From: a virus
Virus record (IMG/VR): IMGVR_UViG_3300043426_000117
Span: 1 to 27,322 of that record
Strand: one strand, 5' to 3'
DNA: 27,322 bases
Below the pieces are notes generated by a model. It saw only the letters and a program-made list of their open reading frames with translations, was not told where the DNA came from and made no database searches. Shown here one piece after another: positions 661-27,322 of this stretch (its first letter is position 1; each line of letters begins with the position of its first letter). A program made the translations under genes and the position numbers.

Positions 661-1021
661 ATTTGATATCAATGAATACAAAGAAAAAGCCCGAGAGACT
701 GCTGTGTACATGTACCCTGATTATCCTTTGGCAGCACTCGTAGAAGAGGTTGGTGAAGTGATGGGTAAGCTGGCAAAGTTCGGTCGAAAAAATGACCTTC
801 CGCTTGAGATGGTCATGTATTGTGTATCAACTCCTACGTCTTCTTTGCAACAGGAACTTCGTGAGCAGGTGTCTAAGGAAATGGGTGATGTAATCTGGCA
901 ATGGGTTAACCTTTGCCACGAGCTCAACCTCAACCCTGCTCAGGTAATGGCCGATAACATTGAAAAACTCCAAGGTCGCAAAGAGCGTGGCACACTGGAA
1001 GGTTCAGGGGATGAAAGATGA
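653..1021 (+). CDS. MazG-like nucleotide pyrophosphohydrolase
   Basis: This 122-residue protein probably hydrolyses NTP or dNTP to the monophosphate plus pyrophosphate, as all-alpha NTP pyrophosphatases do. Phage MazG proteins have been linked to housecleaning of nucleotides and to tuning of host alarmone levels. Visible motifs are EEVGEV near residues 30-36 and KEMGD near 84-88, matching the EExxE and ExxD metal-binding pairs. A helix with WQWVNLC follows, then an N-x-x-KL-x-x-R tail element. The spacing between the two acidic pairs, about 50 residues, is longer than in classic MazG and fits the insert-bearing phage versions. The gene starts inside the polymerase stop (preceded by AGGTGG) and ends in an ATGA overlap with the ligase, so the three are likely translationally coupled. 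Substrate is unknown. Confidence 0.8.
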   Translation: MLKFDINEYKEKARETAVYMYPDYPLAALVEEVGEVMGKLAKFGRKNDLPLEMVMYCVSTPTSSLQQELREQVSKEMGDVIWQWVNLCHELNLNPAQVMADNIEKLQGRKERGTLEGSGDER

Positions 1022-2142
1022 GTGACACTCTCTATATCAAAGACAACGCAGGGCACCTCCGCTACTGGAAGTGCTATGAGGTTCTCAATGGTCTAGAGAT
1101 TGAATACGGGGTGTGCGGTGGCACGCCCCTTTATCAATCTGAAGACATTGAGGAAGGCAAGGGTGGTCGTGATCAGGATGAACAGATTGCTTCCCGTATT
1201 CAGTCTCGCATTAATAAGCAGCTGGATAAAGGCTATGTATTTGATAAAGAGCAAGCTGCCAGTATGCGACCAGTCAATGCCCTAGGGTTTGTCAAGCCAA
1301 TGCTTGCCAAGAAGTCAGAGGATGTTGACCTCAAGAAGCTGCTGACTCGTGATGTGTATTATCAACATAAGTTAGATGGCAACCGTTGCCTAATTCATAA
1401 TGATGGTACAGGGTTGGTCGCATACACTCGCAATGGTAAGGAGTTCACAACACTCAAGCACATCACTGATAAGCTCAAGAGCATCATTCCAGCGGATGCT
1501 ACACTGGATGGTGAATTGTACTGTCATGGTGTGCCACTTCAGACTATTGTGAGCTGGGGAAAGCGTTTGCAACTTGATACTTTGAAGTTGCAATATCACT
1601 GCTATGACCTTGTTAGCAATGAGGCATTTTCCAATCGCTCTGCCGAGCTAGGAGCGATTCTAACAAATCGAGTTTCTACCCTAGGGGGTAGTATAGCCAT
1701 AGTCGATACTATTCGGATTAGCCCCGATTACGGCGCTACTTTAGGGGGTATCCCAGCTTTAGTAGGTCGTTCTCGGGCTGAAGGGTTTGAGGGTGGCATG
1801 GTTCGCTCTGACTGGACTCTTGAGCGTGGACTATTTGTTCCAGTTGGGTATGAAGATGGCAAGCGTTCTGGCAGCCTGATCAAATGTAAGCTGTGGGACA
1901 ATGCAGAGTTTGAAATTATAGGGGTTGACACTTCCGCTGATGGATGGGCAATCCTGAATTTGAGCAACCCACGTGGGCCTAACTTCTCAGTTAGCTGCCC
2001 AGGGGATGTGCCTTTCAAACACTATGTTCGTGTACACAAGGAGAAGTATATCGGCAAAAAGGTAACTGTTAAGTTTGCATACTGGACCACTGATAATGTT
2101 CCGTTTCATCCAACAGCAGAGGCAATAAGAGACTATGAGTGA
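1018..2142 (+). CDS. ATP-dependent DNA ligase
   Basis: This 374-residue protein seals nicks, for example between Okazaki fragments, using ATP. Nucleotidyltransferase motifs are in order: motif I KLDGNR with the adenylated lysine at about residue 118, RNGKEF at 138-143, motif III LDGELY at 163-168, motif IV EGFEGGMVR at 255-263 and motif V LIKCK at 287-291. An OB-like C-terminal domain follows (FEIIGVD to VTVKFAYW). Residues 1-75 form an extra N-terminal domain with YWKCYEV...IEYGVCGG, then GKGGRD...EQIASRIQSRINKQLDKGYV, like the WGR-type domain seen in some phage ligases. ATG 1018 overlaps the MazG stop (ATGA). Codons for residues 206-250 differ sharply from the rest of the gene (see the island at 1633-1765), although the protein there still looks like a normal ligase. 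Confidence 0.9.
   Translation: MSDTLYIKDNAGHLRYWKCYEVLNGLEIEYGVCGGTPLYQSEDIEEGKGGRDQDEQIASRIQSRINKQLDKGYVFDKEQAASMRPVNALGFVKPMLAKKSEDVDLKKLLTRDVYYQHKLDGNRCLIHNDGTGLVAYTRNGKEFTTLKHITDKLKSIIPADATLDGELYCHGVPLQTIVSWGKRLQLDTLKLQYHCYDLVSNEAFSNRSAELGAILTNRVSTLGGSIAIVDTIRISPDYGATLGGIPALVGRSRAEGFEGGMVRSDWTLERGLFVPVGYEDGKRSGSLIKCKLWDNAEFEIIGVDTSADGWAILNLSNPRGPNFSVSCPGDVPFKHYVRVHKEKYIGKKVTVKFAYWTTDNVPFHPTAEAIRDYE
1633..1765 (+). other. Hairpin-rich, rare-codon island inside the ligase gene
   Basis: Within about 130 bases the codon choice switches to CTA, ATA, GGG, CGA, CGG and TTA, which are scarce in the rest of the ligase. Inverted repeats follow one another. AATCGCTC (1633-1640) pairs with GAGCGATT (1652-1659). 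CTACCC (1676-1681) pairs with GGGTAG (1686-1691) across a TAGG loop. TAGTAT (1689-1694) matches ATACTA (1706-1711), and CTACT (1736-1740) matches AGTAG (1761-1765). The encoded protein is not visibly interrupted. What the element does is unknown. Confidence 0.6.
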
Positions 2143-2387: not shown

Positions 2388-4485
2388 ATTCGCTTTTCAG
2401 CACATCAAGCAACTCTTGATACTTGTCACGAACATAATCTTGAGGTGTCTCAGTTTGAGCCGCAGCACGCTGTATATGGATGCTGGCGTTCGGGTCAAGA
2501 CCATGAGCTGGACTAAGTCTGCGTCCAATGAATGGCATCCTGTTTGTATTCAAGCGGTAGCTCAAACCAAACAAATCCACAGGTCGCATAGCATAGTCAC
2601 GAGCACGCTTCATCAACCCCCTTTTAATAGTATGAGGCTCTGCTTTACCGAGTCCTGTCAAAGCCCCGCCCGCAACATCTTCACCGTGCAAAACATCATT
2701 GTAACGAGCGATGTTCTGGAACTGCTTGATTCTGCCTCCCTTGCCAGTCAAGGTTCGCATCGCTTCGTCGCCACCCATTACTGCTGATGTAATAGCAGTT
2801 GGGTCAACCTTACCCGCTGGTGTCATGCCCTTGTCAAGTAGCAGACGAGTCATCGAGTATCTTTCATTCAGGTCTTTCCATTGCTTGGCAGTTGCAGCAT
2901 TCATGCCACTGAGGAGAGAGTCATCAAGCACAGTCTGCACCTTACGGAGGTTGTCACCAAGGCGCTTATCTCCGCCTTGATATGCTTGGCTGATTTCATC
3001 CTGCAGCCGTGAGCGCAAGCCTTGGTACTGGGTGCCGTTGAATTGGTAGCCCATGAACCTGCCATCACTGCCACGCTGTGGCGAACCCATTTCTGTTTTG
3101 AGTTGCTTTGCAAAACCATTGACAATTGCATAGCGTTGCTTATCAACTGGTGATGTATTGCGATTCCTAGTTGGCTTCAAATCTGCTAGGACTTTGCCAA
3201 CTTCCCGAATCTGACGCAAGCCATATTTGCCAGTTGTGTTGGCCTCAAGAGCAGTGTAGCTGCCTTTGAGGTTTTTCATATGATCAGACAGTTCTCCCTG
3301 AGAAAGCAAATCACGGTCTTTGGTGTTCAGGCCAATTGCCTCACCTGCCATAGCAGTCATACGGCGCTGGTTGGGTCTGTCAACTTGGTTGGCAAACTCT
3401 TGGCCATAAACATCACTATTGCGGATTGCAGCTTCTTCAGTCTGGAGTGCTCTGTTGCCAGTGCGAATCCCAGGTGTGATGTGCAACCCTTGGCGATACA
3501 TTTCCTCAACAATCTTCTTGCCAGCAGCATCCCGCTCGTTGCGTGTTTTGTTCAGCACAGTGATAGGGCCGAACATCCCACTGAGTCCACCAATGAATGA
3601 AGTAACAGCACCCTCTCCAGCAGTGGTATCATATTGACCTGCCCCCTCAGCAGCACCAGTAGCAGTACCCTTGAGGATTGTGTTAAGTTTTTGCTCATAC
3701 TCAGAAGGAAGTCTGGCAGGCTGGTTAAGCATACGCTCAACTTCAGCTGTGTTTCCAAGCTTCCGGTTCATTGCAATGCTACCACTTTTCAGCGGGCCTT
3801 CCAAAGTCTTTCCAACAAGGTTCAGAGCCCTTTCACCTGCAATGCCAGTTGCGAAGTAAGGGAGCATCTCACCAATCATTGTGGAACCAAGGTTCTCACG
3901 CCGAGTGATTTCATAGCGCTCTTTCTCTTTTGCCATGTAATCATCAACTTGCTTATTACGCTCATCAGCTGGAAGATTTTCACCAATTGGCTGATGGTTA
4001 AGAATGTCCTGAACTGCTTGTGGGAAGAACTCAGGTGCAAGAGCAGTCTTTGCTTGGAACTGCTTGCCTATGTGCTTAGCACCCTCGATCACACTGCTGA
4101 TGAATGGGCGTTCTTGCTCAAGCTTCTTGAGTGCTTGGCGCTCCTCATCACCAATGAATGATTTTTCATATTCATTATTGGCATTGATTCGCTTATTTGC
4201 CTCATTGATAGCAATCTTTGGCATACCAAAAGGCAACTGATCTGGCATTGGGATATTAGGCTTAAGGTTCGGCTCGAACCCCGTAGGATTCGCGGCGCTA
4301 GGCCGAACCTCCGGCCCGCTAGGCGCTTCGATAGGGCTACCCTTTAGGGTAGTACCGCCCCCGTTTACGACTTCGCTACGGGCCGGAGATTTAGCCATAG
4401 CTTCTGCTACAGTGGCATCAATCTCTTGTGGAGTTGCCCCATTGGGCACCTCCAACTTACGACCATCTTCAAGTTGAATGATCAT
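2386..4485 (-). CDS. Putative DNA ejection / internal virion protein, 699 residues
   Basis: This is the last and one of the largest genes of the leftward virion operon. It opens with MIIQLEDGRKLEVPNGATPQ, an N-terminal module common at the start of podovirus ejection proteins. A Gly/Ser/Pro-rich linker (residues 30-75) follows, then long helical, Gln/Lys-rich stretches (about 100-560). No transglycosylase or peptidase catalytic motif was recognised. By position and composition it is a candidate for a protein packed in the head and injected with the DNA. ATG 4485 is preceded by GGAG with 6-base spacing. The linker is encoded by a strongly structured DNA island (4265-4388) whose codon use is unlike the rest of the gene. 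A minor tail or head component is the alternative. Confidence 0.6.
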   Translation of the reverse strand: MIIQLEDGRKLEVPNGATPQEIDATVAEAMAKSPARSEVVNGGGTTLKGSPIEAPSGPEVRPSAANPTGFEPNLKPNIPMPDQLPFGMPKIAINEANKRINANNEYEKSFIGDEERQALKKLEQERPFISSVIEGAKHIGKQFQAKTALAPEFFPQAVQDILNHQPIGENLPADERNKQVDDYMAKEKERYEITRRENLGSTMIGEMLPYFATGIAGERALNLVGKTLEGPLKSGSIAMNRKLGNTAEVERMLNQPARLPSEYEQKLNTILKGTATGAAEGAGQYDTTAGEGAVTSFIGGLSGMFGPITVLNKTRNERDAAGKKIVEEMYRQGLHITPGIRTGNRALQTEEAAIRNSDVYGQEFANQVDRPNQRRMTAMAGEAIGLNTKDRDLLSQGELSDHMKNLKGSYTALEANTTGKYGLRQIREVGKVLADLKPTRNRNTSPVDKQRYAIVNGFAKQLKTEMGSPQRGSDGRFMGYQFNGTQYQGLRSRLQDEISQAYQGGDKRLGDNLRKVQTVLDDSLLSGMNAATAKQWKDLNERYSMTRLLLDKGMTPAGKVDPTAITSAVMGGDEAMRTLTGKGGRIKQFQNIARYNDVLHGEDVAGGALTGLGKAEPHTIKRGLMKRARDYAMRPVDLFGLSYRLNTNRMPFIGRRLSPAHGLDPNASIHIQRAAAQTETPQDYVRDKYQELLDVLKSE
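4265..4388 (-). repeat. In-frame palindromic island with two adjacent perfect stems
   Basis: On the coding strand, CTCCGGCCCG (4388-4379) pairs perfectly with CGGGCCGGAG (4318-4309). Adjoining it, AGGTTCGGC (4310-4302) pairs with GCCGAACCT (4273-4265), so the two stems share two bases and could stack. Inside the first stem, CTACCC (4337-4342 on the plus strand) and GGGTAG (4347-4352) form a third hairpin with a 4-base loop. The island encodes residues 33-74 of the ejection protein, a low-complexity Gly/Pro/Ser linker. G+C content and codons (CTA, CCT AGC, GGG) differ from the flanks. It may be an in-frame palindromic insertion or a structured RNA element. Confidence 0.65.
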
Positions 4486-4488
4486 ACA

Positions 4489-5505
4489 TTACTCCACAAT
4501 GCGGTATTTATGCCCGCTCTTTGTAGTGCTCCAATCAGCAGGCTTGCTCTCGCTTGGTTTGACGCCTGCAGCAGCGTTGCGATTAACAACGCTGTTTGCA
4601 AACTCTTGTGCCTGCTGGAACTTAATCCGCTTTGTTTCTGGGTCATCAGTGAACTTGGGCATCATACCACGGTATGTTGCCATTTCACCTTCAGTGGCAG
4701 ATGCACCTGACATGATCTTGACTGTCTGCTGGGTAACACTGGTCTTGTAGTTATTGAACTTAACAGCAGACACAGTCATTGGAATCCCAGATGCACTAAG
4801 CAAGCTATCAGCAACGCTACCAAGAGTTCCTGGGGCTGTTCGCAGCTCATTCAAAATGTTAGTAGCAGGTGTTCCGCCTGTGTCGAGGTTCTGACCTAGG
4901 CCAGCAGTGGATGATTTCAACACATCACCTGCAGTACCAGCTTGACGCTGAGTGTCATTCAGCATTGGTCGATAGCCCATTGTTGGCAAGTCACCAAGCG
5001 GGATACCAACAGGAGGGTGCTCGCCTTGTTCATTGACAAGCCCCATGGAGTCTTTCAACCCAAGCAGTTGCTGGGTTGGGTTTACAGTCACTTTGAAGCT
5101 TGACTTATTAGCTGCTGCTTTATCAAGCACCCATTGTTGGTAAGAGCCTTGGTAGCCTTGTCCTTGTGCATACTGATACTCCTTCACAGATGAAGGAGCC
5201 TCAGTAGTAGTTGCAGCAGTAGCACGCTGCTGATACATGCTCAGTTGGCTCAAGCCTTCTTTCTGCAGGACAGGGTTCCCGCTTTTGATCATGGCATCAA
5301 CTTGCTCTTGCCATCTTGTCAATGGGTCAGGCATCTTATATTGCTGCCCTGCATTAGCAGGGTCAGCTGCAAAGATTTGCTTATCCTTATCATACTTGCT
5401 GCTCAACTCTTGCTGTAGCCTTGAGTAGGCATCAGCAGTCTGGGAAGGGTCAGGGCCAAGAACAGCATTGTTGTACCCTTTGGCAATTTGGTCAAGAATC
5501 CCCAT
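4489..5505 (-). CDS. Putative internal virion protein, 338 residues
   Basis: ATG 5505 was chosen because it follows a perfect GGAGG with 5-base spacing; upstream in-frame codons run into the preceding gene. The protein is soluble and Gln/Ala/Thr-rich. The segment SSVKEYQYAQGQGYQGSYQQW (residues about 104-124) is a short aromatic motif recurrent in phage structural and ejection proteins. There is no enzyme signature and no membrane segment. It lies between other likely ejection genes in the leftward operon, and the Shine-Dalgarno of the next gene overlaps its stop. A role as internal or tail-associated virion protein is inferred from position only. Confidence 0.55.
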   Translation of the reverse strand: MGILDQIAKGYNNAVLGPDPSQTADAYSRLQQELSSKYDKDKQIFAADPANAGQQYKMPDPLTRWQEQVDAMIKSGNPVLQKEGLSQLSMYQQRATAATTTEAPSSVKEYQYAQGQGYQGSYQQWVLDKAAANKSSFKVTVNPTQQLLGLKDSMGLVNEQGEHPPVGIPLGDLPTMGYRPMLNDTQRQAGTAGDVLKSSTAGLGQNLDTGGTPATNILNELRTAPGTLGSVADSLLSASGIPMTVSAVKFNNYKTSVTQQTVKIMSGASATEGEMATYRGMMPKFTDDPETKRIKFQQAQEFANSVVNRNAAAGVKPSESKPADWSTTKSGHKYRIVE

Positions 5506-5506
5506 G

Positions 5507-5815
5507 TTATCCTCCACGGAGCATATTGAGCAGAGCAGTAACAGGAAGCCCACGACTACCACCTTGCTGCTGCATATTGATTCCTTGAAGCATCTGCATC
5601 ATGTTGGGGACAGCAGGAGGCTGCATGCCAGCATTCATATATTGCATGCCAACATTCTTATCAGAAGCCTTGGTTCGCTGTGCACCTTGTGTGCCAACTG
5701 CTTCAAAAAATCTGCCCATTGGGTTGCCTGTATCAACAAGCCCTTGCTGTGTTTGCGGCGCAGGCTTCTTGGTGTTTCCAGCAGAACCCTTGAGTAAATC
5801 AAGAAATGACATCAT
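5507..5815 (-). CDS. Small Met/Gln/Gly-rich virion-operon protein, 102 residues
   Basis: The protein starts MMSFLDLLKGSAGN and continues into a disordered Pro/Gln/Met-rich middle (NAGMQPPAVPNMMQMLQGIN) and a short C-terminal helix ending RGG. No family was recognised. Two start codons (5815, 5812) sit at the stop of the upstream gene, and its own last codons contain the GGAGG that serves the next gene, so it is tightly built into the operon. Composition resembles its neighbours, suggesting a small internal virion or assembly protein. That is inference from context. Confidence 0.6.
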   Translation of the reverse strand: MMSFLDLLKGSAGNTKKPAPQTQQGLVDTGNPMGRFFEAVGTQGAQRTKASDKNVGMQYMNAGMQPPAVPNMMQMLQGINMQQQGGSRGLPVTALLNMLRGG

Positions 5816-19237: not shown

Positions 19238-19428
19238 AGGAGGAGGGGTACTGGGTGTGTGAAAAGTGTGATGGAATTGCGTGAGCAGGACACCTCGGCC
19301 TTGGACTGCTGCATCACCCCCTCCCCCACCCATCCACCGCTTGCCCTGACATGCTGGCCATAGCCCTCCACACCTCTACACTTCCAGACGTCTATCCCTC
19401 TGGCCGTCTAGCCTTCCACCTGCGCGCG

Positions 19429-19438
19429 TATATAAAGG
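19429..19438 (+). promoter_or_regulatory. TATATAAAGG motif, candidate phage promoter element
   Basis: TATATAAAGG lies in the control region upstream of the early genes. The same 10-mer recurs at 24323-24332 and a variant, TATATAAATA, at 25651-25660, all in intergenic DNA with rightward genes downstream. Repetition at gene-start regions is the only evidence. Confidence 0.35.
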
Positions 19439-19685
19439 AAGGAAAGCGGATATAACTATCAGATATAAGTATCCCACTGCTTATTCCTAACTAATCTTTA
19501 CTTCTATCCTAACTGGACTATAGTTATCTCACAGGTCGGGAATAGACCCAGATAGGGGGGAACCTCTATAAGTAGCTCTCTCCTAGCGTAAGAAGTAGGG
19601 GCGACCTTAGAAAAGAAGTAGCTTTACTAATATCGGAAAACGTACTACCTTTATAATCGAATACTTTGAACAACTGGAGAATACT

Positions 19686-20020: not shown

Positions 20021-20049
20021 AATGACACCATTGAATGCTGGAGAATACT

Positions 20050-20700
20050 ATGAAAACCATCATCGAGCTTATGACTGCCCTTTCCGCTCAATCTAACATT
20101 GGCGAAGGTGCGCGCATCGCTATGGCCTCTGGTCTGGCTGGGGCTAAAGACATCTATCTGGCTTGGGGCAAGGAAAAGGGTGAGTCTCTCAAGACGCTCA
20201 ATGAGCAGTGGAAGGTCATTGAGGATGAGGTCAAGCCAGCCAAGCGGGCAGGTGCCAGTGGGTTCGCAGCCATGTACTATGACTGGCTGGCAGAAGCAAG
20301 TCGCACTGAGCAAGAGGCGCGTGACCTTATCATGGGCAACGAGTCACAGAACGTTCGCAACCACCTCACTCACTATCTCAACATCTGGGCACTTTGCGAG
20401 ACTGTGCGCCAAGGTCAGAAGGTGGCCCGCTCTCTTTCCGCTGAGAAAGTTGAGGGTGAGCCAGCTGAGAAGGCACCCAAGATCAAACAGGCAAAAGAGC
20501 CAGAGTTTGTCTATGACGCTGCGCACCCCTTTGCCTGTGAGAAGTCAGCAGCGGAAACCTTGCTGCGCCAAAAGAATCTTGTGGCCAAAAAGCGTGACCT
20601 TGCCACCCTGTTGGTGGGTGCTGAGATGGAAGGCCCAAGCCAAGAAGGGTTCAAGGTTATCCTTCGCAACACCAAGAAAAGCCTCAAGATTGAGGAATAA
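20050..20700 (+). CDS. Early helical protein, 216 residues, unknown
   Basis: ATG 20050 was chosen over 20035 because CTGGAG sits 7 bases before it and the same 15-base CTGGAGAATACTATG starts the previous gene. The product is helical and charged (IGEGARIAMASGLAGAKDIY, then YDWLAEASRTEQEARDLIMG). A Lys/Pro/Glu linker (VEGEPAEKAPKIKQAKEPEF) leads to a basic C-terminal part ending KKSLKIEE. No enzyme motif was seen. Codon use is of the common type for this genome and the G+C is high, suggesting strong expression. It may be a nucleic acid- or host-binding early protein; this is not shown by sequence. Confidence 0.8.
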   Translation: MKTIIELMTALSAQSNIGEGARIAMASGLAGAKDIYLAWGKEKGESLKTLNEQWKVIEDEVKPAKRAGASGFAAMYYDWLAEASRTEQEARDLIMGNESQNVRNHLTHYLNIWALCETVRQGQKVARSLSAEKVEGEPAEKAPKIKQAKEPEFVYDAAHPFACEKSAAETLLRQKNLVAKKRDLATLLVGAEMEGPSQEGFKVILRNTKKSLKIEE

Positions 20701-20713
20701 GGGGTGGCCAGTA

Positions 20714-20761
20714 GGGGGATAAGGGCTTGAAATAGGGGGTTTATAGAGGGATATTAGAGGG
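20714..20761 (+). other. Plus-strand G-quadruplex candidate
   Basis: Five G-tracts of 5, 3, 5, 3 and 3 bases (20714-20718, 20723-20725, 20735-20739, 20748-20750, 20759-20761) are separated by loops of 4, 9, 8 and 8 bases. Some loops exceed the usual 7, so stability is uncertain. Confidence 0.45.
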
Positions 20762-20769
20762 ATAGTAGT

Positions 20770-20817
20770 AAGGTAAGTATATAATCTATATAGAGTTTTT
20801 ATATACTTTCTTACCTT
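20770..20817. repeat. 15-bp AT-rich inverted repeat with a 4-base bulge
   Basis: AAGGTAAGTATATAA (20770-20784) is matched by TTATATA (20799-20805) and CTTACCTT (20810-20817), with CTTT as a bulge and a 14-base loop. It lies exactly between the G-rich and C-rich blocks, which would extend it into a longer imperfect hairpin. Confidence 0.7.
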
Positions 20818-20819
20818 CT

Positions 20820-20850
20820 CCCCTAACCCCCTACTTTCCCCCGTTCCCCC
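20820..20850 (-). other. Minus-strand canonical G-quadruplex motif
   Basis: On the minus strand there are G-tracts of 5, 5, 5 and 4 bases separated by loops AAC, AAAGTA and TTA. This satisfies the G3+N1-7 rule comfortably. It would form when this strand is single-stranded, for example during leftward transcription or replication. Confidence 0.7.
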
Positions 20851-21119
20851 TTGGGACTCTTTAGACACCCTCTCCCCCCCTCTCTCTCTCTCTCTAGTAG
20901 GGGGATATTTTAGGGGTCTATCCGGTTTTTTAAGGAAAAACCCCTTATAAAACCTATACTTAATAAATCCCTATTAACTTTTTTGTAGGGGTATAGCTAG
21001 TTTCGAGTAGGGGAATAGGGGGATAATAGATTTCTAGGGTAAAAAAAACCTTATAAATCAATAACATCACCCTGAAATAGAATCCCCCTACTATATTAGA
21101 CTCGATAGGATATTATATT

Positions 21120-24128: not shown

Positions 24129-24263
24129 ATGTACTATATATTTGTTGGGTTTGTAGTGTGGTTGGTTTGCCAAATCATTCCGTTTTTGGCAGGTTTTGCA
24201 GCCATGTTATTCTGGCTGTTTATAATTGGCTTCATGACTTCCATCATTCTTGGAATCGCCTAG
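24129..24263 (+). CDS. 44-residue two-TM protein, holin candidate
   Basis: AGGAGGT with 8-base spacing precedes ATG 24129, a strong ribosome site. The product is almost wholly hydrophobic, with two membrane segments (IFVGFVVWLVCQIIPFLAG and MLFWLFIIGFMTSIILGI) and almost no charge. Two-TM small proteins upstream of an endolysin are typical class II-like holins. It is shorter than usual holins (about 70 or more residues), so the assignment is tentative. Confidence 0.55.
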   Translation: MYYIFVGFVVWLVCQIIPFLAGFAAMLFWLFIIGFMTSIILGIA

Positions 24264-24419
24264 CCTAACCCCTAGCCTATAGGTCGCCGTCTATAGGGCT
24301 CTTTCTCTATATCCGGCGACTCTATATAAAGGCTATACTATCCTATAGCCTAGCGAGCCGCGCCGAATACGGGCCCCCTATCGCCTATCGCGTGGTGGGA
24401 CTCGTAAGGAGCTAACACT
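24264..24419 (+). promoter_or_regulatory. Structured intergenic island
   Basis: About 155 bases with two good hairpins: GTCGCCG (24283-24289) with CGGCGAC (24314-24320), and AGGCTATA (24330-24337) with TATAGCCT (24344-24351). TATATAAAGG (24323-24332) overlaps both. Composition (CTA, TAG, GGGCCCCC) is unlike adjacent genes. It could hold a promoter and an mRNA-processing site; AAGGAG for the next small gene lies at its end. Confidence 0.5.
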
Positions 24420-25377: not shown

Positions 25378-25626
25378 ATGTGCAACTACGTAACAAGAAT
25401 CAGACTTGTCTGTGCAGTTAATGTCATAGACACTGATTTGCCGAAAGAGAAATGGACTTACTGTGAGTACCACTATCCGCTATGTGAAGGAGCAGCTCAA
25501 TGCCTTACAGACAATATTGATCTGGTCACTGAGGATGACAACATTGATCAATTCTGGTTGGAGTATTATGTACCATTAGATGAAGCATGGCACAGAGCTT
25601 CAGACTTGCCAGCAATCTGTTTATAG
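25378..25626 (+). CDS. 82-residue Cys-rich, acidic unknown protein
   Basis: ATG 25378 was chosen because GGAGG lies 6 bases before it; the longer GTG at 25330 lies across the hairpin and has no ribosome site. The product has CNYVTRIRLVCAVNVIDTDL, then YCEYHYPLCEGAAQCL with four cysteines in the first half of the protein, and an acidic end (DNIDQFWLEYYVPLDEAWHR). The cysteines could bind metal, but no known finger pattern was recognised. Confidence 0.65.
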   Translation: MCNYVTRIRLVCAVNVIDTDLPKEKWTYCEYHYPLCEGAAQCLTDNIDLVTEDDNIDQFWLEYYVPLDEAWHRASDLPAICL

Positions 25627-25751
25627 GCGCTTTAATATAACGGGGCGGTCTATATAAATAAAAGTTATTAGCGCGCCCCTTAATATAGATATATAATTTA
25701 TGGACTATTTGCAGATTTCCTGCAGATAGATTGTTCGGTTGAGGCAGACCT
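25627..25751 (+). promoter_or_regulatory. Intergenic control region before the primase gene
   Basis: GGGGCG (25642-25647) and CGCCCC (25674-25679) form a stem enclosing TATATAAATA (25651-25660), a candidate promoter element. TTTAATATA (25631-25639) and TTAATATA (25681-25688) flank it as direct repeats. GAGG for the primase gene is at 25741-25744. Confidence 0.45.
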
Positions 25752-27322
25752 ATGTTTCACATTTCAATGCAAGCCTCAGAGAAAGCCAATAGCAAACTTG
25801 AGTTATATCAACTGACGCTTGAACAGCTTGGTCAGGCAACAAAGACAGTTGAACAAGGTGGTAAGCATGGCAAAGGCTTTATCAGAGGGAAACTAAAAGG
25901 GCCAGAGCGACGCAATGAATACTTAGAATACTCAAGGCTGTTGATCATTGATGCAGATGGTGGCATCGATGGTAAGCCGACACCAAAAGCTGAACACTGT
26001 CATCAAGCACTGAAAGACTTAGGTTACAGCCATGTACTGTATACCACTCACTCACACACTGATGAGTTCCACAAGTATCGCGTGGTCATTGAGTTGAGTG
26101 AGGATATTCAAGAGCACGAATTACATGCCAATATGAGCCAGCTTCTCAAAGAGTTGTTTGCTCAAGGCGTCCACCTCAAATATGTATCTGAGATGGATAC
26201 TTGGTCGCAGATTTGGTTCTTCCCAAGACGCGACAATCCAGATGATGGGCAGTTTATTCATTTGGAGTATTATGATGGCAGTGAGTTTGACACAATCCAT
26301 GTTGACAAGGAAGATGCTGAGAAGGTTGTACATTCCAGAGAGCGTAGCAGTGACGAGTCTGATGTTGTTAAGACATTGGATGAAATGTTTGAAAGCATAC
26401 GTACTGGGAAGGAGTTCCACACAAGCCTTCGAAATATCAGCTATCAGCTTGCCAAAGATGGTGTGTCAGAAGCAATTGTAAGAAGCACGCTGACAAGCGT
26501 CATGGAGTCATCTGTTGAAGCCGGTTCAGAGCGATGGACAGAGCGGATGAAAGACCTCCCGCGTTTGATCAAGGGTGGATTTGACCGTGTACAGAAAGAG
26601 CTTGAATCAGAAACAAATTTCAGCATCAAAGAGTTGTCGCAGAGCATGGGCAATTACACGCCGCCGCCAGTTCCGCCTGGCAGGATTGGACGGGCAATTG
26701 AACAGTGCATGGCGACAATGGCACGTCCTCAGATTGAGTTTGCGTTTCCAATGATCATTGGCTCCATAGCAGCAATATGTGGTGCCAAGTTTAATGGGTA
26801 CACAAACGAGTACACTGGTCTGAATGTCAATATGACAGTTGTAGCAGACACAGGCTTTGGTAAAGGTCAGATAAGCAAGTTTTACAACAGCTTGTTTATA
26901 GGTGGGTTGGGTGGTAAGATAATCAACCTATCAGGTGGTGAAGGCGCCATGTCTTTTATTGGCACCAATAACTACACTGCACCAAAACCATTACATCAGG
27001 ACTTGATGAAGGGCAGAAGTAAGATTGTATGTATGCAGGAAGCTGGCATCATGCTTGGTGCCAAGTCAGGTAATGCTGATGAGCTTTCCGCTTATGTCAT
27101 GGAAAACTATGTGAATAGTGCTCACAATCAATTTTCTTCATCACGTAGCTACTCAAGTGAGGAGAATAGCTTGCGCCCATTCAGAGCGCCTGCTATGTCG
27201 CTGGTTCTGGAGTCAACAGAGAAGTCTATTGCTGACGCACTCAAGAGCATGAACGCAGTAGAGTCTGGATACATACCGCGCCAGACAATGTTCAAGGTTG
27301 TTGGGAAGCCACGTGTCAAACG
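25752..27322 (+). CDS. Primase-helicase fusion (AEP-like plus DUF3987-like), 3' truncated
   Basis: ATG 25752 follows GAGG with 7-base spacing; the frame is open to the window end (523 residues visible). The N-terminal domain has DAD at 67-69 (LLIIDADGG), THSH at 99-102, YRVV around 109-112, and MDTWSQIWFFPRR, the order of the archaeo-eukaryotic primase motifs DxD, sxH and a later acid. From about residue 300 a helicase-like domain begins, with a Walker A-type ADTGFGKGQ at 365-373 (K371) and a later CMQEAGIMLGAKSG. The final part recalls DUF3987-type replication proteins. Such fusions start replication in plasmids and phages. The helicase end is missing from the window. Confidence 0.75.
   Translation, partial: MFHISMQASEKANSKLELYQLTLEQLGQATKTVEQGGKHGKGFIRGKLKGPERRNEYLEYSRLLIIDADGGIDGKPTPKAEHCHQALKDLGYSHVLYTTHSHTDEFHKYRVVIELSEDIQEHELHANMSQLLKELFAQGVHLKYVSEMDTWSQIWFFPRRDNPDDGQFIHLEYYDGSEFDTIHVDKEDAEKVVHSRERSSDESDVVKTLDEMFESIRTGKEFHTSLRNISYQLAKDGVSEAIVRSTLTSVMESSVEAGSERWTERMKDLPRLIKGGFDRVQKELESETNFSIKELSQSMGNYTPPPVPPGRIGRAIEQCMATMARPQIEFAFPMIIGSIAAICGAKFNGYTNEYTGLNVNMTVVADTGFGKGQISKFYNSLFIGGLGGKIINLSGGEGAMSFIGTNNYTAPKPLHQDLMKGRSKIVCMQEAGIMLGAKSGNADELSAYVMENYVNSAHNQFSSSRSYSSEENSLRPFRAPAMSLVLESTEKSIADALKSMNAVESGYIPRQTMFKVVGKPRVK

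Follow-up and report, generated by a model that had tools for sequence, protein, structure and literature searches.

The palindromic patch inside a minus-strand gene of a 27,322-nucleotide viral DNA (IMG/VR record IMGVR_UViG_3300043426_000117, hereafter the window) is one of several sharply bounded, nearly CA/TG-free, hairpin-filled stretches of about 80–630 bases that occur in a group of podoviruses. Positions 4250–4396 belong to a set of discrete zones of double-stranded DNA, located at partly conserved map positions, from which the steps 5′-CA-3′ and 5′-TG-3′ are kept out on both strands and in which inverted repeats are enriched. The three stems by which the patch had been recognised in a sequence-only reading are all exact and lie where that reading placed them (Table 1), the 9-bp and 10-bp stems having positions 4309–4310 in common, and the patch is indeed in frame, within about residues 33–77 of the open reading frame that runs from 4485 to 2386.

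The segment has a G+C content of 62%, against a background of 45.6%, and its codon use is unusual, as had been noticed (z −4.6), though not uniquely so: a tail-gene segment equals it, and a segment of the ligase gene, itself another CA/TG-free island, is more extreme. On its coding (minus) strand the segment folds more stably than any other 130-nt stretch of the window (−64.8 kcal/mol), with z −3.2 against dinucleotide shuffles, −5.7 against synonymous recodings that follow the codon usage of the phage and −4.2 against permutations restricted to the segment's own synonymous codons; given the last two values, the fold is not explainable by amino acids or codons. Third in stability among the 130-nt folds is one at 5151–5280, on the plus strand opposite the gene at 4489–5562. 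A tRNA was rejected for the segment, as was a known structured RNA family: Rfam models gave no match to positions 4000–4700 up to an E-value of 1 and none at gathering score in the window, Cronobacter phage Ss1 or Vibrio phage VA-RY-3; no overlapping gene crosses 4250–4396 on either strand. The strongest feature of the segment, missed by the sequence-only reading, is the complete absence of CA and TG: zero over 147 bases versus about 26 expected. The same 147 nt contain 17 CpG, where the CpG odds of the genome are 0.47.

Table 1. Positions of the islands, stems and neighbouring genes in the window.
Feature	Positions	Strand	Remarks
ATP-dependent DNA ligase gene	1018–2142	+	
Coding island in the DNA ligase gene	1642–1779		syntenic in five phages; weaker run
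Host ORF P0001, 699 aa	2386–4485	−	homologue of SS1_23 of Cronobacter phage Ss1
CA/TG-free island holding the palindromic patch	4250–4396		147 nt, 0 CA/TG, 17 CpG, 14 TA
9-bp perfect stem	4265–4310		AGGTTCGGC 4265–4273 / GCCGAACCT 4302–4310; 28 nt between
10-bp perfect stem	4309–4388		CTCCGGCCCG 4309–4318 / CGGGCCGGAG 4379–4388; 60 nt between
Inner hairpin	4337–4352		CTACCC 4337–4342 / GGGTAG 4347–4352; TTTA between
Island upstream of the SS1_01 homologue	19422–19667		
SS1_01 homologue	20035–20700	+	between two islands; paralogue of SS1_35
Main intergenic island, 350 nt	20710–21059		origin-like, large inverted repeats; syntenic in five phages
Intergenic island, 142 nt	24252–24393		0 CA/TG, nested inverted repeats
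Island immediately upstream of the DUF3987 gene	25619–25701		
DUF3987 primase-helicase gene, SS1_45 homologue	25752–27320	+	truncated where the window ends; followed by the RusA gene in relatives

CA or TG occurs in the bulk of the window at 0.177 per base, i.e. once per 5.6 bases, so that the longest CA/TG-free run expected by chance is about 44. Islands were called by a two-state hidden Markov model (HMM) that separates runs of near-zero CA/TG from bulk of normal density; six were called in the window, coding as well as intergenic. Further long CA/TG-free runs lie at 24252–24393 (142 nt), 20729–20852, 20867–20984, 19550–19667 and 25619–25701. The main intergenic island overlaps a stretch of 271 nt (20726–20996) without any GC dinucleotide (expected maximum about 109), which is rich in GGGG/CCCC, TAGGG and CT repeats, contains a large inverted repeat and is origin-like in appearance. 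By map position the ligase island is about half a genome away from the main intergenic island, and the two may mark the terminus and the origin of replication, respectively.

The nearest named phages are Ss1, VA-RY-3 and Vibrio phage PVA7, each of which carries 5–6 islands, with longest single CA/TG-free runs of 187, 144 and 148 nt, respectively; a 42-kb contig (G001) carries four. In the window, Ss1, VA-RY-3 and PVA7 alike, long empty runs recur in excess for CA/TG and for no other of the ten complementary dinucleotide classes, and the HMM found no island in 45 control loci from more distant, ligase-bearing phages (865 kb). Since the genomes came from different groups and samples, an assembly artefact is excluded. 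Searches with portal and polymerase sequences uncovered islands in a wider group of phages, one of them inside a PolIII gene; PolIII relatives in bacterial genomes had none. In five phages that are 60–88% identical, the ligase island occupies one common position, where it coincides exactly with the one part of the protein that is poorly conserved, the rest being well conserved, replacing a variable segment and adding none; in-gene islands in general sit within poorly conserved protein segments. Islands also recur on either side of SS1_01 (except in G001, for which only the downstream one was called), ahead of SS1_35 and of the DUF3987 gene, and after the Sak4-like gene. A 16-mer conserved in the ligase islands, CTAGGAGCGATTCTAA, was rejected: outside the clade it occurs at chance level, with normal CA/TG around it.

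The SS1_01 and SS1_35 families (20035–20700 in the window; L024, 18785–19366) are paralogues that share a domain, and both genes adjoin islands. The SS1_35 model is all-helical (pLDDT 82), and no solved structure matched it beyond a very weak resemblance to a phage D5 protein; the SS1_01 model is too uncertain. A conserved 65-residue gene lies almost wholly inside a CA/TG-poor island in VA-RY-3 (L024, 5832–6029) and PVA7 (L025, 38943–39140), and four loci of wider relatives (L094, L096, L098 and L137) encode short early genes within CA/TG-poor regions of 330–630 nt, those of L094 and L096 being SS1_01-like. SS1_34 (L024, 19487–20395; phrog_4828, of unknown function) lies near a PolIII alpha gene, and its one PDB hint is a very weak match to a sliding clamp (E 0.49). 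In the PVA7 record (L025, PQ582223) many short ORFs stand where relatives have intact genes, and this fragmentation suggests frequent frameshift errors in the sequence.

The islands are under constraint. Their edges are abrupt, with bulk CA/TG density regained within 10 nt. Long CA-free runs are also TG-free, and vice versa; the rule therefore acts on duplex DNA and not on one RNA strand. In each of six coding islands the number of CA/TG was below that of all 4000 synonymous recodings (observed versus recoded: segment 4250–4396, 0 versus 16.9; ligase island of the window, 3 versus 18.9; of Ss1, 0 versus 20.7; of VA-RY-3, 3 versus 12.0; the 65-residue gene of VA-RY-3, 4 versus 17.5; the PolIII island, 1 versus 18.7). 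Between close relatives the islands diverge at about the bulk rate (5–15% in three comparisons and 1% in the one other), and the changed sites involve CA/TG in 2 of 47 and 5 of 47 cases within islands versus about 30% in bulk, which shows that the absence of CA/TG is maintained while the sequence drifts. Perfect inverted repeats with arms of at least 10 number 20 in islands versus 1.55 in dinucleotide shuffles (13-fold), and 36 versus 15.8 in bulk; inverted repeats that do contain CA/TG exist outside the islands of the same genomes. A definition of the islands by their hairpins was rejected, as several lack unusual pairing; pairing is common but secondary, because not every island is structured. 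Noncoding DNA makes up 54–64% of the islands and about 5% of the genomes. This does not reduce to noncoding DNA being CA/TG-poor, since noncoding sequence outside islands still has 0.11–0.13 CA/TG versus 0.14–0.17 in coding sequence. Nor can an absence of start codons explain the coding islands, or why CTG and CA are missing from both strands. The words CCTAGCG, CGATTCTA and CTATCCTA occur in islands more often than dinucleotide composition predicts, an excess due in part to common descent. We regard the pattern of CA/TG-free islands as secure.

Gene content points to two candidate enzymes. Complete or long records with islands have both a DUF3987 primase-helicase and a RusA-family resolvase wherever the region is covered; the window itself ends inside its DUF3987 gene, before the place where a RusA gene would be expected. 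The complete relatives that have neither gene (G005, G008, G009, G012 and G016) have no islands, one repeat in G005 aside, and G005 is island-free though it shares PolIII, Sak4, DUF669, the Cas4-like exonuclease and RadD. The sole HMM call in G005 (L087, 2606–2805) was rejected as an island, being a six-base repeat array (GGGTCC/GGGTTC/GGGGAC) that is CA/TG-poor by simple repetition. RusA is of interest because the E. coli enzyme cuts junctions almost only at one dinucleotide, its cleavage falling almost exclusively 5′ to CC (PMC3485210). The RusA of this clade aligns to the solved E. coli structure (1q8r), and the catalytic residues R69, D70, D72, K76 and D91 are invariant in an alignment from which one segment containing a stop was left out.

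When viral contigs were scanned by RusA alone, 22 of the 78 newly scanned loci carried 45 CA/TG islands, with RusA proteins 38–84% identical to the query. By comparison, CC/GG, AC/GT, AG/CT and GA/TC gave no island at all, and the other five classes gave 11 between them. The islands flank the RusA gene (median distance 200 nt versus 2134 nt for random placement) and also precede the primase gene. Five loci (L217, L219, L235, L237 and L239) encode a RusA 40–43% identical together with DUF3987, yet have no CA/TG island. The recruited loci are not independent, because the searches recruit related phages, and presence or absence cannot separate RusA from DUF3987, because the two genes adjoin. Long TA-free stretches were seen in a few of the recruited loci, among them L230 (15706–16300) and L209 (12309–12619).

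We tentatively propose that the zones are exempt from a phage enzyme acting at CA/TG, and that the likeliest candidate is the RusA-family Holliday-junction resolvase; the reading is possible, with the balance at present against it. Nearly all adequately covered island-bearing phages encode RusA beside the primase-helicase. Should the RusA of this clade cut at CA or TG, it could not act on a zone in which neither strand has that step, and zones that extrude cruciforms or hold reversed forks or D-loops would be protected from the resolvase. Candidates for such protection would be the origin-like intergenic regions, the hairpins before operons and the ligase midpoint opposite the origin-like region. 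Alternatively, junctions might be pushed to the zone edges and resolved only there. Several observations count against the resolvase: r1t RusA and SPP1 G44P are relaxed in specificity (PMC3485210), five loci with RusA and DUF3987 lack islands, RusA and the primase are adjacent and the phages share ancestry, inverted repeats containing CA/TG occur outside islands, and some islands lack unusual pairing.

Presence of the DUF3987 gene follows the islands just as closely as that of RusA, and the gene is immediately preceded by an island in the window, in VA-RY-3 and in about ten of the RusA-recruited loci. Both facts would suit a primase, formed by the N-terminal part of DUF3987, that starts at a TG-containing trinucleotide, so that the islands stay free of primers on both strands and shape initiation and the meeting of forks at the origin-like site and the site opposite. 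A trinucleotide preference would also fit the residual CA/TG of the islands, which avoid GCA/TGC and CAT/ATG most, although the residual context differs in the wider set. We nevertheless hold this explanation to be doubtful: dense priming is unnecessary, so gaps of 150 nt should rarely matter, and G017 has a DUF3987 match but its locus (L031, 16.6 of 20.7 kb) has no island.

The islands' bias towards intergenic DNA (54–64% versus 5% of the genome) is what would be seen if a base in TG/CA steps were modified genome-wide while promoters and origin-like regions were kept unmodified for polymerases and initiators. TG-directed modification has a precedent: in phage M6 the 5hmdU DNA kinase targets TG, and TG/TC is common to the resistant sites of M6, ViI and phi W-14 (PMC6449724). 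However, TC/GA is not avoided, the VA-RY-3 early genes searched include no modification gene recognisable by Pfam, PHROGs or NCBIfam, only an ordinary ThyX, and the coding islands (ligase, PolIII and P0001) have no obvious promoter role. We consider such modification-free zones rather unlikely.

We judge it about equally improbable that the islands are regulatory platforms, i.e. zones of binding or non-binding for a DNA-coating or regulatory phage protein such as the SS1_01/SS1_35 paralogues, where the lack of CA/TG would exclude the coating protein or host promoter elements (TTGACA being impossible). SS1_01 does lie between two islands, SS1_35 has an island upstream in several phages, there is the very weak structural match to the D5 protein, and islands are enriched in shared words such as the three above. 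Yet a binding site is a motif that is present, not a dinucleotide that is missing over 100–400 nt; the islands in ligase, PolIII and P0001 regulate no obvious gene; and common descent and composition inflate the excess of motifs. Distinctly less probable still is a functionless outcome of local mutation, in which CA/TG would be turned into TA or CG within limited tracts by a mutator resembling RIP or a deaminase. TA and CpG do rise where CA/TG vanish, and all of these are pyrimidine-purine steps within reach of transitions, but the ligase island keeps the same position in five phages 60–88% identical, edges are sharp, words are conserved, G+C is raised, not lowered, in several islands, and coding islands keep their frames open.

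The gene that hosts the segment had been called an ejection-protein gene, a label that gained no confirmation: P0001 has no PHROG or Pfam family match. The part of P0001 encoded by the island is a linker after the N-terminal domain, and the linkers of Ss1 and VA-RY-3 at the corresponding position are ordinary, differ in sequence and are only 10–14 residues shorter. The homologues thus do not all carry the segment: Ss1 and VA-RY-3 have no island there, and PVA7 has its island about 150 codons further on in the homologous gene, with no structure beyond chance. The segment's own island is therefore not at a matching position in relatives and is only loosely shared; a near-identical 16.9-kb contig from another record carries it. 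The interpretation first offered for the patch survives in part. A cis-acting DNA or RNA signal hosted in a tolerant linker fits, as the segment is one of a conserved, strand-symmetric set of islands. A small palindromic element that inserted in frame in the manner of Rickettsia elements does not, and is highly improbable: its in-frame place in a tolerant linker, size near 150 bp and palindromic stems are as such an element would have, but the window yielded only the single match and no second copy, blastn against phages and plasmids found no relative, the islands have no common sequence or peptide, and the Ss1 and VA-RY-3 linkers showed no clean empty site or insertion footprint. Exact stem patterns gave ten matches in viral contigs, namely the near-identical contig and unrelated loci; the island at 24252 did not align with the segment beyond chance; and the residues encoded by different islands are unrelated, other islands being noncoding.

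We think it quite possible, though somewhat short of probable, that the islands are a new class of cis-acting element defined by one dinucleotide being absent on both strands: CA/TG-free, cruciform-rich zones immune to a phage-encoded, dinucleotide-specific junction-cutting (or priming) enzyme, which would control where replication or recombination intermediates form or survive. The DNA signals that we know of are motifs that are present. Here a signal seems to consist in leaving out a two-base step for 100–400 bases at a stretch, with a force that prevails over codon choice, and even over the encoded protein, in genes as important as that of DNA ligase. In the open-licence PubMed Central literature we came across no earlier account of this signal, whose defining trait is an absence, and searching for dinucleotide-free regions in phages brought up nothing comparable. 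Such islands are easily detected in any genome by a simple scan, and they point to few candidate enzymes (the RusA resolvase and the DUF3987 primase) whose specificity is directly measurable. Were the resolvase idea true, it would show how a phage keeps the junction-cutting nuclease that it encodes away from its cruciforms, forks or origins, and the dinucleotide cut by the resolvase could be read from the genome sequence.

Among known systems, the RusA family (PF05866) is alike in that the island-bearing phages encode a RusA with conserved catalytic residues and that E. coli RusA has single-dinucleotide cleavage specificity (PMC3485210); the RusA of the island phages would differ in cutting CA or TG, not CC. 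In the literature we found no description of a genome-scale exclusion of a resolvase-cut dinucleotide from discrete zones. Thymidine hypermodification in M6, ViI and phi W-14 is likewise a phage DNA transaction at TG dinucleotides (PMC6449724), but those phages are also affected at TC, a step that the island phages, with no modification genes recognised, do not avoid. Rickettsia palindromic elements resemble the segment in being about 150 bp long, palindromic and in frame in a coding gene (PMC10969869). They form multi-copy families with conserved peptides, unlike the islands, which have no copies and no common peptide and are about half intergenic. Vertebrate CpG islands and fungal RIP tracts are also local blocks whose dinucleotide composition is unlike the bulk; to our knowledge, no methylation or RIP machinery is known for the island-bearing phages. 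The phage islands differ from both in the dinucleotide concerned, in their sharp edges and in their synteny.
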